This document shows, one piece after another, positions 48,563-56,390 of a DNA stretch of 64,000 nucleotides. The notes under the pieces were generated by a model. That model saw nothing but the letters and a program-made list of their open reading frames with translations, was not told where the DNA came from and searched no databases. The stretch comes from Maribacter zhoushanensis (GTDB lineage Bacteria > Bacteroidota > Bacteroidia > Flavobacteriales > Flavobacteriaceae), in the NCBI RefSeq assembly GCF_029350975.1, contig NZ_JARKMR010000005.1:1-64000 (forward strand). The letters run 5' to 3'. Each line of letters starts with the position of its first letter. Within the stretch, counting starts at the first letter, position 1. The position numbers and the translations under genes were made by a program.

Positions 48563-49084
48563 TCATTTTCTTTTTTTCTTCTTTTTTACTTTGGATTTAT
48601 CCAATTTCAATTTCTTTTTGATTCTATTTTCTTCATCCCCAATAAAAGAGAAGTAATCGTCATTGTATGAATGCTTTTTAGCTTTTTTAAGAAACTTTAA
48701 AGCATCTTTATATGCTTCCTTGGTTTCTAACGCATACGCTGAAAGCCAAAACAAATTTCCTTTTGATATCCCTTTTAATGTAAGGGCAAAAGCAATTAGT
48801 TTGTTTGCCCTTTCAATTTCATCAACCCAAATCAAGTATTTTATGTAAAGTGGATATACACCCAAATAATAACTATCAATTGCGATGACTTTGTCAAAAC
48901 AATCAAATGCTTTTTCATATTGGTTTAAGTTTCTGGCATATACTTTCCCCAAAAGACAAAGTGCTGCGCAGTGGTTTTCATCATAAGACAAGGCATAGTT
49001 TAGTGATTCGCAAACTTCGTCCCAATCGTAACCAGATGCCGCTTTTGCCTTTAGGTAATAAGTGTCGGCTATTGTAAGTCCCAT
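48563..49084 (-). CDS. TPR protein of the RtcB-PrfH operon
   Basis: A 173-residue protein built of tetratricopeptide-like helices (CAALCLLGKVYARNLNQYEK, AFDCFDKVIAIDS, DALKFLKKAKKHS) with an extremely basic tail (KSKVKKKKKRK). Its start overlaps the prfH stop by 16 bases. No enzymatic motif. The tail suggests RNA or ribosome contact, and translational coupling to prfH suggests a scaffold for the repair proteins. Confidence 0.8.
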   Translation of the reverse strand: MGLTIADTYYLKAKAASGYDWDEVCESLNYALSYDENHCAALCLLGKVYARNLNQYEKAFDCFDKVIAIDSYYLGVYPLYIKYLIWVDEIERANKLIAFALTLKGISKGNLFWLSAYALETKEAYKDALKFLKKAKKHSYNDDYFSFIGDEENRIKKKLKLDKSKVKKKKKRK

Positions 49085-49767
49085 TTTTGTTGTTTTAAAT
49101 CGTTTTTTAGCTTTTGCCGTTTTGGTTTAAAGCCTTTTTTCTCTTCTTGATGTTTAAAGTCCGTGCCCTTAAAAACACGAATAGGGTTTCCACGTTGCAA
49201 ATTCATATGATTTTCCCATTCGTCTATCATGCTATTTTTTAACTGCGCTAGATTAACTTCGTTTACTTTTTCTTTTAATCGAGCTATTGCTAATTTTTTG
49301 TTTTGATGTTGTGATCTACTATCCATTGCAACTACTTGAACTCCAGTTGTGTTATGAATTGCTCTCACCGCCGAGTTTACTTTATTTACATTTTGGCCAC
49401 CAGGACCCGTACTTCGCATAGTTTGAAAAGAGATGTCCTTTTCATCCAATTTCATGGTTTGCATTTGCTTCAATTCAAAAACTCCAATAAACCAGTTTTT
49501 TCGTTTATGGTATTTTCGAAATATAGAGATACCGATCCATTGAATGGTTCCCAACCAAGTTGCTAAAAAGGCTTCAAGATCTTCTCCTCTTAAGCGAATA
49601 GTCACCGATTGAACTGTTCCATTTAGGTTTCCTTTTTCTCGGTGTATTATAATATGTTTAAACCCTTTCATCTTGGTTTCTTCCAAAAATCGTTTAAGCA
49701 CTTGGGCAACGACCCAGCTACATTCTGCTGGACCTCTACCTGCTGTTATTTGTATAATTTTTTCCAT
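49069..49767 (-). CDS. prfH: Peptide chain release factor-like protein PrfH
   Basis: A 232-residue release-factor homologue. It starts ITAGRGPAECSWVVAQVL, the PrfH signature, and carries the catalytic loop STGPGGQNVNKVNSAVRA (GGQ at 123-125). It lacks the N-terminal and codon-recognition domains of RF1/RF2. Characterised PrfH releases peptides from ribosomes whose decoding centre has been cut, letting RtcB repair the 16S rRNA. Here rtcB is 107 bases upstream in the same direction. Confidence 0.94.
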   Translation of the reverse strand: MEKIIQITAGRGPAECSWVVAQVLKRFLEETKMKGFKHIIIHREKGNLNGTVQSVTIRLRGEDLEAFLATWLGTIQWIGISIFRKYHKRKNWFIGVFELKQMQTMKLDEKDISFQTMRSTGPGGQNVNKVNSAVRAIHNTTGVQVVAMDSRSQHQNKKLAIARLKEKVNEVNLAQLKNSMIDEWENHMNLQRGNPIRVFKGTDFKHQEEKKGFKPKRQKLKNDLKQQKWDLQ

Positions 49768-49791
49768 GTTTTTTAATTAAAAGTTAAACTA

Positions 49792-49870
49792 TAGTGTTCC
49801 TACGCCTTTGACTAAGATCAGGATGACAGCTGAGCAAATACTGCTAGCTGCAACTGTCAACTGAACACTA
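49792..49870. repeat. Palindromic interspersed element (MITE/REP-like)
   Basis: A 79-base unit with exact terminal inverted repeats TAGTGTTC (49792-49799) and GAACACTA (49863-49870), and internal paired segments GACAG/CTGTC, CAGCT/AGCTG and AGCA/TGCT. It fills the gap between rtcB and prfH. It resembles short palindromic repeats with CTTTGACT...TCAGGATGACA that I recall from flavobacterial genomes. Related text lies near 46680. Confidence 0.6.
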
Positions 49871-49874
49871 ATGT

Positions 49875-53715: not shown

Positions 53716-55113
53716 TTAAATTTTAGCTTTCTCTCTTCTTTTCTTCCTCCAAGGAGCATTTACCTGAAAATCTCCAGCCATAATGCAACCGTAAGGCATT
53801 ACTTTATCAATTATCTCTCCTAAGCCATACTCTTCCATTTGAGAACGAACCGTTTGTGCATTTTTATAAGCGCTAGGCAGCTCAGAAATATCAATTTCTT
53901 TAGAAAAGAAACGAACATCTAATCCTTCCGTTTCCAAATTGAACAAGGCTTCTTTGGTAAAATCTGCATTGTTTCTTTTGTGTTGTGTTCTACTCATATT
54001 TCTACCAGCTCCGTGTGGGGCAAAACCTAAGTTCTTAGTGGTGGTTTTACCTTCCACAATCAAAACAGGTTCAGCCATATTCAAGGGTATTAATCTTGGA
54101 CCGGTAATATCAGGCATAAATTTAGGATCTAAGGGTGTAGCGCCTTTAGCATGGTAAAACAAATCTCCGTCTTTAAAAACAAAGTTATGCTCATTCCAGT
54201 AACGGTCTTCAGCTTCCATCTCTAGAACTTCTAAAGTGGCGTTATGAATACACTCGTGGTTTAACTTTGTCCATTTTCTTATCGTCTGCAAAGCACTCCA
54301 GTACAATTGTCCTTCTTCAGTTTCAAAAGGGATCCATGCATTTTGTTTTAACGCAGCTGGACAAAGGTCTTTTCTAAACCGTTCTGCAATGTGCATTCCT
54401 TTTTTGTACAACCTTGCACCTGGCGCTCTAGAACCGTGATGAGTAATCATCATAGTATTACCAGTTTTTTCTGAAACACCAACAAATAAGAAGTGATTAC
54501 CATCACCTTGAGTTCCTAAATGTTCTATTGCAAGACTTATGTCCTTTGGTGTATTCAATAGTTTATTTGCTTTGAACTCAGCTAATAATTCTTGGGGTAA
54601 TTTATATTGTTTACCACGTGGTCTACCACCTGGTCCAAAATGTGTAATTGAATGTGCGGCATCTAAAACTAGTTTTGGATCTGTTTTTCCGAAATCGGTC
54701 AACATTACAGAGCAACAAATATCTGCACTATGCATACCTGGGTGAATAGCATTCTTTGCTACAACAACACCACCAACGGGAATTGTACCTAGTGGCCCAG
54801 TAGGGCACGCATCAGGCATTATAGCCCCATTGACAGTTGTAGGTGTGCGCATTAAAACTTTCATGGAATCCACTACTTTAGTTACATTGGTCTCTTCCAA
54901 TTCATTTTCGGCTTTTATATTTATTTCGAATTCTGCAGGGTTAGAATGCAGGTTGATCATAGGTGGTAAACGATATTGCTCTAAGAAGTCTAACATAGCT
55001 TCTTCTTCCAACTGGTTTGCGTTAATATAATCTATGGCTTCTGGAAACCATTTTCCTGAACGAAAACCTAAATCAATTAATTCTTTTCCTGTGATGTTTA
55101 CTGTATTTTTCAT
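53716..55113 (-). CDS. Second RtcB-family protein (divergent paralogue)
   Basis: A 465-residue RtcB relative, first gene of the minus-strand operon. It keeps the metal and guanylation sites in changed form: [11 protein letters not shown] (D131, C133 or C134) in place of [17 protein letters not shown] (N206, H207), THHGSRAPG (H226), NEHNFVF (H309) and [10 protein letters not shown] (H367). The double Cys and the altered surrounding residues set it apart from the prfH-linked copy. It probably ligates a different RNA end or tRNA set. Twelve bases separate it from the CCA-enzyme gene. Confidence 0.93.
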
Positions 55114-55216
55114 CTGTTTAGTGTTATTGTTTTTTTAAGGTCATATGCAATTCGCTATTAGAAATTTTAAATAATCGGTAAATCTTTTTAGCTCATTTCA
55201 TAATTTCTTTTAATTA

Positions 55217-55360
55217 GCTCTGCCGACTCCATTCGTTCGGCAGAGCGCTACATGAAGACTGTTTTAACTGGTCTTCTTTATGATTCTGGTACAAACTTGA
55301 GAACTATGTGCGCAATTATTTTGCGTAGTTGTTTTTGATTTTTTATTTTAATCAAAAACA
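55217..55360. promoter_or_regulatory. Hairpin-rich divergent control region of the repair operon
   Basis: Four dyads are stacked between the second rtcB and the WYL gene: GCTCTGCCGA/TCGGCAGAGC (55217-55226, 55237-55246, perfect), GAAGAC/GTCTTC (55254-55259, 55271-55276), CGCAA/TTGCG (55311-55315, 55321-55325), and TGTTTTTGATT/AATCAAAAACA (55330-55340, 55350-55360). The third covers a -7 candidate TTATTTTG (55316-55323) with TTG at 55297-55299. Operator and leader roles are inferred. Confidence 0.5.
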
Positions 55361-55367
55361 TTGTTAA

Positions 55368-56390
55368 ATGGCAATCAATAAAAATGCACTTATCCGTTAT
55401 AAAACGATTGATAAATGTCTTCAGAATACATACCGTAAATGGACATTAGATGATTTAATCGAAGCTTGTTCAGATGCTTTATATGAATATGAGGGTCGTG
55501 AAATCAATGTAAGCAAACGTACCGTGCAAATGGACATTCAGTTAATGCGAAGCGATAAATTAGGTTACAATGCACCCATAAAAGTTTACGATAAAAAGTA
55601 TTACAAGTATGAGGAAGATGAATATTCCATAACAGATATTCCCATCACAGAAAATGATATGAATGTGCTTAGTGAAACTGTAGAAATGCTCAAACAGTTT
55701 AAAGACTTTTCATTATTTTCTGAACTAGGGGGCATTATTCAACGATTAGAAGATAAGGTGTACACAGAGAAAACGCATCAAGCTTCAATCATTCATTTAG
55801 ACAAAAACGAGAACCTAAAAGGACTTCATTGGTTGGATGAATTGTATCAAGCAATTCAGAAAAAAATAGTATTGAAATTGGAGTATCAATCTTTTAAAGC
55901 AAAGCAATCTGGGGTGATTCAATTTCATCCTATACTATTAAAAGAATTTAATAATCGTTGGTTTCTAATTGGGAAAGGTGCAAAATCAAGAGGAATTGTA
56001 AATTTAGCTTTAGACCGTATTAAGAGTGTTGATTATGCTTTTTCCGTGCCTTATATACCTGTAGAGTTCAATGCAGATGAATTTTATAAGAACGTAATTG
56101 GGGTAACTGTAAACCAAGGGGAAAGAGCGGGCAATGTTAAATTGTGGGTAGATCATAGGCATGCACCATATGTGGTAACAAAACCTTTGCATCATTCGCA
56201 ATGTATTGAAGAAAGAAATGAAGACGGTAGTATAGTTATATGTATTAAGGTCAAATTGAATTTTGAATTGGAACGAATTATACTGGGCTACGGAGAAGCT
56301 ATGAAGGTTTTACAGCCAGAGCGATTAATTAAGCGTATTGCCCTACGAGTCAATAGAGCAAAGAAGTTATACGATATAAAGCCATCTTAA
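55368..56390 (+). CDS. WYL-domain transcriptional regulator
   Basis: A 340-residue regulator: N-terminal winged helix-turn-helix (about 1-80, with GREINVSKRTVQMDIQLMR), a WYL ligand-binding domain (about 160-230; LEYQSFKA, FHPILLKEFNNRWFLIG) and a WCX tail (about 250-340). WYL domains are proposed to sense nucleotides or RNA ends and are common regulators of repair and defence. It faces the minus-strand repair operon across a dyad-rich region, so it is the likely controller, with autoregulation at the leader palindrome. Confidence 0.92.
   Translation: MAINKNALIRYKTIDKCLQNTYRKWTLDDLIEACSDALYEYEGREINVSKRTVQMDIQLMRSDKLGYNAPIKVYDKKYYKYEEDEYSITDIPITENDMNVLSETVEMLKQFKDFSLFSELGGIIQRLEDKVYTEKTHQASIIHLDKNENLKGLHWLDELYQAIQKKIVLKLEYQSFKAKQSGVIQFHPILLKEFNNRWFLIGKGAKSRGIVNLALDRIKSVDYAFSVPYIPVEFNADEFYKNVIGVTVNQGERAGNVKLWVDHRHAPYVVTKPLHHSQCIEERNEDGSIVICIKVKLNFELERIILGYGEAMKVLQPERLIKRIALRVNRAKKLYDIKPS

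Follow-up and report, generated by a model that had tools for sequence, protein, structure and literature searches.

A putative leader-peptide attenuator upstream of an RtcB-PrfH-TPR operon in Maribacter zhoushanensis and related Flavobacteriaceae

RESULTS

A structured leader with a short open reading frame precedes rtcB1

The first 64,000 nucleotides of contig NZ_JARKMR010000005.1 of Maribacter zhoushanensis (assembly GCF_029350975.1; the window, whose coordinates are used throughout) contain an RNA-repair locus at positions 48563 to 56390. A gene for a WYL-domain regulator on the plus strand diverges from six genes on the minus strand, whose order of transcription is RtcB-W (an RtcB-family RNA ligase), CCA (a CCA-type nucleotidyltransferase), an S24/S26-peptidase-like gene, RtcB1 (a second RtcB), PrfH (peptide chain release factor H), and a TPR-like gene. 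Sequence comparison and structure prediction make it likely that the last three genes, RtcB1-PrfH-TPR, form an operon for ribosome rescue and repair that is under the control of a leader-peptide transcription attenuator upstream of rtcB1. The basis for this is the observed conservation of the leader, its alternative structures, the frame of its open reading frame (ORF), and its genomic linkage.

The element lies within 51934-51267, a stretch in which an earlier note on this DNA had proposed a candidate small RNA. The stretch is conserved in many of 80 related loci, the best of at least 581 stretches containing a relative of RtcB-W that were found by scanning genome_contigs, with titles mostly naming Flavobacteriaceae. 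Besides a terminator and a promoter region, it includes a leader with predicted structure (fold z = -3.22). As a conserved sequence the candidate small RNA is real; a leader-peptide attenuator of RtcB1-PrfH-TPR is the better reading of it. At scores above the gathering threshold, Rfam returned for the window a tRNA only; the best match in the locus was Yfr10 (28 versus 43 bits, E 0.64), and the gap region was therefore rejected as a known small RNA. The parts of the leader are as follows.

51367-51520, minus strand: leader, putative transcription attenuator (covariation; covariance model R1)
51518-51512, minus strand: leader segment 1
51424-51507, minus strand: leader ORF of 27 codons, MTFSNTYQNTLKVPGALTVLLQDFLYT (frame conserved)
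51474-51458, minus strand: inner hairpin of the leader
51448-51437, minus strand: leader segment 2
51401-51391, minus strand: leader segment 3, AAGUCCGAAGC
51383-51373, minus strand: leader segment 4, GUUUCGGACUU, followed by a run of T's

Typical copies start with a CYGAAG-like segment 1, followed a few bases on by the ATG of an ORF of 24 to 29 codons, the final codons of which, typically L-R/Q-D-F/Y, constitute segment 2. Segments 3 and 4 can pair to form a terminator (3:4), segments 2 and 3 a competing antiterminator (2:3), and pairing of segments 1 and 2 (1:2) would block 2:3.

Alternative pairings covary and the ORF frame is conserved

Iterated nhmmer searches recovered 46 leader copies in sense orientation from 81 sequences (the 80 loci plus the window), one per sequence. 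Of these, 42 were aligned (alignment A1), the weak or partial copies of L026, L073, L074, and L082 being omitted. For the helices of the presumed OFF structure (1:2, inner hairpin, and 3:4), 93.0% of the cells in A1 were paired compared with 88.0% after shuffling, 10 pairs were changed on both sides compared with 4.8, and 50 cells showed double changes compared with 14.4; none of 500 shuffles reached any of these values. The 2:3 helix exceeded all shuffles of A1 in paired cells and double-change cells, and all but one in the covariation score. A pooled set of 67 leaders, combining A1 with further ones from alignment A2 and three late hits, provided 66 usable leaders, since L139, whose one ORF starts further in, was skipped. 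Among its 41 distinct in-frame triples, at least one of which (first in L039) takes a wrong segment 2, the three variable pairs of 2:3 covary, being paired in 34, 35, and 37 cases versus 28 to 29 after shuffling (0 of 10000 shuffles each).

The folding test comprised 64 sequences, the late hits being excluded. When a ribosome was masked near codon 5 and segment 4 was treated as not yet transcribed, segment 3 was predicted to pair upstream over at least 8 of its 11 nt in 62 of the 64 sequences; on average 10.4 of the 11 nt were paired, compared with 5.7 when segment 3 was shuffled. Masking of the stop codon position instead gave the 3:4 terminator in all 64. Mutually exclusive terminator and antiterminator helices, as expected of an attenuator, are present here as sequence and predicted structure, with covariation in both 3:4 and 2:3.

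A conserved ORF overlapping the switching segments was likewise found in 66 of the 67 pooled leaders, starting 6 to 20 nt into the leader, spanning 24 to 29 codons, and containing segment 2 in frame. In A1 it is open in 42/42 copies, whereas the other two frames carry stops in 41/42 and 29/42. For the group of 27-codon ORFs (n = 27), the in-frame substitution score of -0.03 exceeded all 200 column shuffles (maximum -0.12; mean -0.86, sd 0.34). The leader ORF is presumably translated. A leader that senses a specific drug or metabolite by nascent-peptide arrest, in the manner of ErmCL, rather than general stalling would explain the conserved end L[RQ]D[FY] and the glycine at codon 15 in 25 of the 27 leaders of this group. 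However, the LRDF codons coincide with the pairing segment, the Gly codon lies inside the covarying inner hairpin, the peptide is variable at its other positions, and in some leaders its end is LRG, all of which makes such arrest most unlikely.

The leader is linked to PrfH operons

In 44 of the 46 sense copies (43 loci plus the window), the leader is followed on its own strand by whichever gene comes first in the local RtcB1/PrfH/TPR operon; the remaining copies (L010 and L022) run past the end of the locus. This position speaks against an independent trans-acting small RNA whose terminator is a normal 3' end, with the operon expressed by constant partial readthrough or from another promoter. 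The promoter-like sequence and the strong terminator would suit such an RNA, but neither the in-frame ORF nor the covarying antiterminator has a role in a simple one, and we consider this explanation very unlikely.

The covariance model R1, built from the leader, gave a single hit in the genome of the strain itself. In an even draw of 397 Flavobacteriaceae genomes (the family sample), hits at E <= 1e-3 occurred in 86, including many weak and unlinked ones (about 41 to 61 bits) that are probably noise; linkage to PrfH and RtcB-W was counted for the 57 hits of at least 49.3 bits. The hits of 69 bits or more number 37: 25 are located upstream of PrfH genes, another 10 no more than 7 kb from RtcB-W, and the remaining 2 in G126, with an RtcB-family gene downstream, and at G213:C14. 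Seen from the side of PrfH, 27 of the 32 PrfH genes of the family sample have a same-strand leader 0.1 to 3.8 kb upstream in the standard search, and three more were found at 44.7 to 49.3 bits with the filters switched off, giving 30/32. Fourteen PrfH genomes have no RtcB-W match and cannot be among the training loci; 10 of these have the leader in the standard search and 3 more with filters off, while the remaining leader-positive PrfH genomes may include training sequences. At E <= 1e-5, R1 matched 8 of 395 genomes of the class, among them G040, from a different family of the order, and G757, from a different family of the class. In G757, G040, G694, and G641, all outside the family sample, the leader precedes RtcB1-PrfH-TPR, with one extra gene in between in G040 and G694.

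Several observations weigh against a PrfH-dedicated, translation-controlled switch. In 12 of the 80 loci the leader fronts TPR alone, with RtcB1 and PrfH not nearby, and it is thus not exclusive to PrfH operons; about five of these TPR-only leaders have a broken 1:2 helix. The PrfH operons of G136 and G409 gave no leader, including in the search with filters off, and as hits of 41 to 61 bits are mostly unlinked, the three extra hits rest on position and segments. The Aureibacter (Cytophagales) and E. coli plasmid loci were not matched by R1, and a reach of the model beyond Bacteroidia was rejected on this ground. For 2:3 on A1, the number of pairs with change (155/500) and of pair types (123/500) failed to beat the shuffles, and the covariation shuffles, both for the OFF helices and for 2:3, take no account of kinship. 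The substitution score of the 24-codon group (n = 7) is 0.54 and lies within the shuffles (maximum 0.75). The peptide shows weak conservation: variability in the 27-codon group is lowest at the third codon positions (0.35 versus 0.45 and 0.44). The weak copies of L026, L073, and L082, outside A1, have an ORF without an LRDF-type end. Conservation is clearer for the length and frame of the ORF than for its peptide, which would fit a requirement for translation itself, not for its product.

Outside the Bacteroidia, loci of E. coli, Aureibacter, Methylosinus, and Skermanella were scanned for short ORFs led by a Shine-Dalgarno (SD) sequence 5' of RtcB; Thiodictyon (no RtcB gene annotated) and Novosphingobium (no annotation) were left out. 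Such an ORF was present in 3 of the 4 loci and absent from Skermanella, a raw count without a chance control. The candidates are located 111 to 207 bp upstream of RtcB-PrfH and comprise 15 codons on an E. coli plasmid (L200:1247-1294), 14 codons in Methylosinus (L203:1218-1262), and 10 codons in Aureibacter (L199:2345-2377). In E. coli, the stretch over the SD sequence can pair, as judged by eye, with the end of the ORF.

Genes of the locus

The seven ORFs described in the earlier note are all present at the positions given for them. Its family labels held for both RtcBs, CCA, PrfH, and WYL, which score above Pfam or TIGR03072 cut-offs, and are weak for the TPR-like and S24/S26-like proteins, which score below them.

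55368-56390, plus strand: WYL-domain transcription regulator (PF13280 39.9 bits, cut-off 21.8; PF25583 48.1 bits, above cut-off)
53716-55113, minus strand: RtcB-W, divergent RtcB-family RNA ligase, 465 aa (PF01139 128.7 bits, cut-off 27)
52327-53703, minus strand: CCA-type nucleotidyltransferase with HD domain, 458 aa (PF01743, PF12627, PF01966)
51935-52222, minus strand: S24/S26-peptidase-like protein, 95 aa (PF00717 11.7 bits, below cut-off 23.3)
49875-51266, minus strand: RtcB1, PrfH-linked RNA ligase, 463 aa (PF01139 281.7 bits, cut-off 27)
49069-49767, minus strand: PrfH, peptide chain release factor H, 232 aa (TIGR03072 227.6 bits, cut-off 166.65)
48563-49084, minus strand: TPR-like protein, 173 aa, overlapping prfH (TPR_8 19.2 bits, below cut-off 25.7)

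RtcB1 and RtcB-W, the only PF01139 matches in the genome, are predicted from family membership to be RNA ligases acting on 3'-phosphate or cyclic-phosphate and 5'-OH ends. RtcB-W matched RtcB chains in the PDB (best E 4e-16), and both proteins score below the cut-off of TIGR03073, the model for PrfH-linked RtcB (146 bits for RtcB1 and 51.1 for RtcB-W versus 271.8). PrfH carries the GGQ peptidyl-hydrolase motif GPGGQNVNKVNS, aligned with the GGQ of the PrfH structure PDB 9mor (E 1.2e-85). The TPR-like protein, as well as its two scanned homologues, is below all Pfam TPR cut-offs. The S24/S26-like protein has 1339 relatives, several of them named "phage repressor protein"; of two homologues scanned against PF00717, one reached 19.6 bits (cut-off 23.3) and the other gave no match.

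In CCA, the PolyA_pol head (59.1 bits) and the RNA-binding domain (36.7 bits) are above their cut-offs and the HD domain is barely so (PF01966, 22.7 versus 22 bits), while all NCBIfam equivalogs are below theirs (best PRK10885, 167.2 versus 451 bits). The genome has two PF01743 matches, the locus CCA and C10:1316614, which share 28% identity. The 120 best database relatives of the locus CCA are 51 to 97% identical to it, some being labeled Mariniblastus or Acinetobacter, and this group stands apart from the CCA genes of related genomes (27 to 32% identical). The top database matches of CCA and the S24/S26-like protein carry the label Maribacter. A phage-borne origin of CCA was rejected, as viral_contigs held no relative and the 403 phage records matched were all below 60% identity. 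A tRNA-Pro (GGG) gene is located at 46775-46849, about 1.7 kb from the end of the locus.

The gene neighborhood is a mosaic

Among the 80 loci, in which gene counts are lower bounds as the loci end at 10-kb flanks or contig ends, a WYL relative was found in 64, in 64/64 on the strand opposite to RtcB-W. WYL and the divergent RtcB are a conserved divergent pair carrying variable cargo: PrfH and RtcB1 occur in 29 loci each, the TPR-like gene in 39 (accompanying PrfH in 27 of the 29 PrfH loci), the S24/S26-like gene in 19, and CCA in 3. Elsewhere the cargo consists of RlaP-family nucleotidyltransferases (20 loci), SPFH proteins (23), DUF434/DUF5616 proteins (9), or families without Pfam match. 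All seven families together were found in one locus (L005), plus the window. The seven genes are not one new fixed system, and their interpretation as a conserved unit was rejected; the novelty claimed earlier for the combination of PrfH with a second RtcB, CCA, and WYL is not supported in that form, given the rarity of the full set and of CCA and the other modules that elsewhere take the place of CCA.

What stands is the assignment as an RNA-repair locus with ribosome rescue, by its gene content and by the co-occurrence of PrfH and RtcB-W. In the family sample, RtcB-W (at least 60% identity) is present in 44 genomes, PrfH (above cut-off) in 32, and both in 18 (hypergeometric p = 3e-11). The two genes lie within 20 kb of each other in 14 of the 397 genomes and are thus associated.

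The alternative that the locus is an anti-phage defense module, with WYL sensing an infection signal and both RtcBs undoing anticodon-nuclease damage, is suggested by the match of the WYL protein to PADLOC models of CRISPR-associated WYL proteins and by the mosaic cargo. It is unlikely, given that none of the other six proteins matched a PADLOC model and that RtcB2-PrfH of E. coli is described as giving no protection against tRNA-cutting colicins (PMC9223846).

Promoter regions and the terminator element suggest several transcription units

55309-55327, minus strand: putative WYL operator TACGCAAAATAATTGCGCA, a palindrome between WYL and RtcB-W, upstream of the RtcB-W promoter
55217-55295, minus strand: RtcB-W promoter with -7 box TTTG (55295-55292) and 5' untranslated region (UTR) hairpins (55276-55254 and 55246-55217), aligned in relatives
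52241-52326, minus strand: promoter region and 5' UTR hairpin (52266-52241) of the S24/S26-like gene, conserved
51752-51853, minus strand: element T1, about 105 nt, ending in an intrinsic terminator (51784-51759), conserved
51541-51686, minus strand: element PR, promoter region with TTG (51578-51576) and -7 box TAGCTTTG (51555-51548), conserved

The palindrome TACGCAAAATAATTGCGCA (up to 3 mismatches) was found next to the WYL gene in 42 of 65 regions, mostly just 5' of a -7 box containing TTTG, and in some of the remaining regions it sits before RtcB-W instead. The genome contains one exact match, this site, and one with 2 mismatches at C10:595861. The palindrome is read as a putative WYL operator, which would respond to a presumed WYL ligand, and the RtcB-W promoter is probably under WYL control. 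The 5' UTR of RtcB-W (fold z = -2.34) has hairpins that are kept in nearer relatives and are possibly a second RNA control element. Upstream of the S24/S26-like gene, a hairpin is common to 14 of 20 aligned regions, with stem changes on both sides as judged by eye; a short ORF in this leader was rejected, as relatives keep the hairpin only.

The 81 sequences contain 66 plus-strand copies of T1, distributed over 48 sequences; 40 of the 66 were listed. An alternative pairing of at least 6 of 7 pairs is possible in 58/66 copies versus 29/66 in the shuffled control. With about a twofold excess the pairing is no more than suggestive, and T1 was rejected as a second proven switch and kept as a terminator element. 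PR has 65 copies in 48/81 sequences, each, by eye, shortly downstream of a T1 copy. The putative promoters of RtcB-W, the S24/S26-like gene, and PR were assigned with the Bacteroidota consensus; a sigma-70 scan showed no excess (27 versus 31.4).

The order S24/S26-like gene, T1, PR, leader, RtcB1 suggests at least three transcription units. The earlier note had proposed a single repair operon under WYL control, spanning the entire locus and serving both rRNA and tRNA, as co-location, the PrfH/RtcB-W co-occurrence, and the palindrome before RtcB-W would have it. The promoter-like regions and the terminator between the halves argue against this, as do the rarity of CCA and the leader-bearing PrfH operons in genomes without RtcB-W, and a single operon is distinctly unlikely. 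The half comprising RtcB-W, CCA, and the S24/S26-like gene would instead be a separately promoted, exchangeable cargo, perhaps for other RNA ends.

The combination of T1 and PR (51853-51541 in the window) occurs in 48/81 sequences, often twice per locus and at module ends, and these repeats could permit module exchange by recombination. In L065, L050, L018, L023, and L037 it also precedes an ORF of 78 to 79 aa (c20) followed by a c16 gene, TPR-sensor-like by eye, and the c20 sites of L018, L023, L037, and L050 bear a palindrome resembling the putative WYL operator. A second leader type, e.g., L004:15484-15990, L007:16665-17170, and L041:13559-14060, consists of T1 and PR followed by another short ORF, in most cases of about 34 to 54 codons (e.g., MESLKRHIQL...). 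In 16 of 28 PR copies without the first leader, a terminator-like hairpin follows 175 to 222 nt further on. Possibly, this second type is a second attenuator family of these loci.

DISCUSSION

By analogy with PA5471.1 of Pseudomonas aeruginosa (see below) and from the anatomy of the leader, we infer that the leader most likely activates RtcB1-PrfH-TPR when a ribosome begins to translate it and is unable to reach the end. The promoter in PR would yield a short leader RNA. A ribosome finishing all 27 codons would cover segment 2 at the stop codon, the 3:4 terminator would form, and the operon would be off. A ribosome stalled in the early or middle codons would keep segment 1 unpaired and leave segment 2 free for segment 3; 2:3 pairing would then prevent the terminator, and the operon would be on. 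Envisaged causes of stalling are a damaged decoding center, cut or immature tRNAs, and drugs. PrfH would free the stalled ribosome, and RtcB1 would then reseal its presumed substrate, the rRNA. The presence of CCA in the locus fits damaged tRNA ends as a further cause of stalling, but at 3/80 loci it is too rare to count as part of the switch. E. coli RtcB2-PrfH is described as protective when 16S rRNA is cut by colicin E3 but not when tRNA is cut by colicin E5 or D (PMC9223846); tRNA repair would therefore have to come from RtcB-W and CCA, a putative role.

Leader-peptide attenuators of the trp and his type comprise four segments, with 1:2 plus 3:4 opposed to 2:3. The leader described here has the same four-segment logic. 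It differs from them in having segment 1 ahead of the start codon and no repeated amino acid, features that suggest general stalling as the signal sensed. In P. aeruginosa, the gene for the RtcB-like ArmZ, beside prfH (PA5470), is described as being under the 13-codon leader PA5471.1, complete translation of which forms a 3:4 terminator while stalling prevents it, and loss of the CCA enzyme also raises armZ via PA5471.1 (PMC3516279, PMC12057347, PMC13041342). According to PMC12057347, attenuation in this case still has to be confirmed by further work. Both leaders feature a short ORF upstream of an RtcB-family gene beside prfH (about 250 bp in the case of PA5471.1), a 3:4 terminator, and a proposed stall-dependent antitermination. 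They differ in the number of codons (13 versus 24 to 29) and in phylum, and are likened by description, not by sequence; moreover, unlike the operon studied here, ArmZ is described as acting as an anti-repressor of MexZ. The attenuation logic on an RtcB-like gene beside prfH would thus be known already, while this element and its spread were found in no earlier report. Within the openly available texts, without supplements, no report was found of a leader on RtcB-PrfH operons in Bacteroidota; PMC9723704 has a supplementary list of structured 5' regions from a flavobacterium, 64 in all, and "rtcB" does not occur in its main text.

As for the genes, the operon shares with E. coli RtcB2-PrfH the pairing of release factor H with an RNA ligase (PMC9223846), from which it differs by an RtcB1 below the TIGR03073 cut-off and by the added TPR gene and leader. 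RtcB-PrfH with TPR and accreted nucleotidyltransferase genes is a published neighborhood (Burroughs and Aravind 2019; PMC6514570), which also lists Pol-beta nucleotidyltransferase and ZnR genes, and the gene set in the window is of a kind already described; the leader, a WYL partner, and CCA are not among the features noted in the available part of that paper. Related loci contain RlaP, SPFH, and DUF434 modules, and the window itself has CCA, not RlaP; RNA-repair systems of the RlaP/RtcB kind were reportedly described by Burroughs and Aravind in 2016.

To our knowledge, the inducer of ribosome-repair operons in most bacteria is an open question. A switch that responds directly to stalled ribosomes would couple repair to damage with no need for a protein sensor. 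The leader would also serve as a search model for operons of this kind in Bacteroidota and would set the Pseudomonas armZ leader in a wider context as a possible damage sensor. More tentatively, and short of calling it probable, RtcB-PrfH operons in general may sense their own substrate, with unlike leader peptides in several phyla detecting ribosomes unable to finish. These peptides would span 24 to 29 codons in Bacteroidota, 13 in Pseudomonas, and the candidate ORFs of E. coli, Aureibacter, and Methylosinus. If this is true, the induction of armZ by drugs would be a side effect of a damage sensor.

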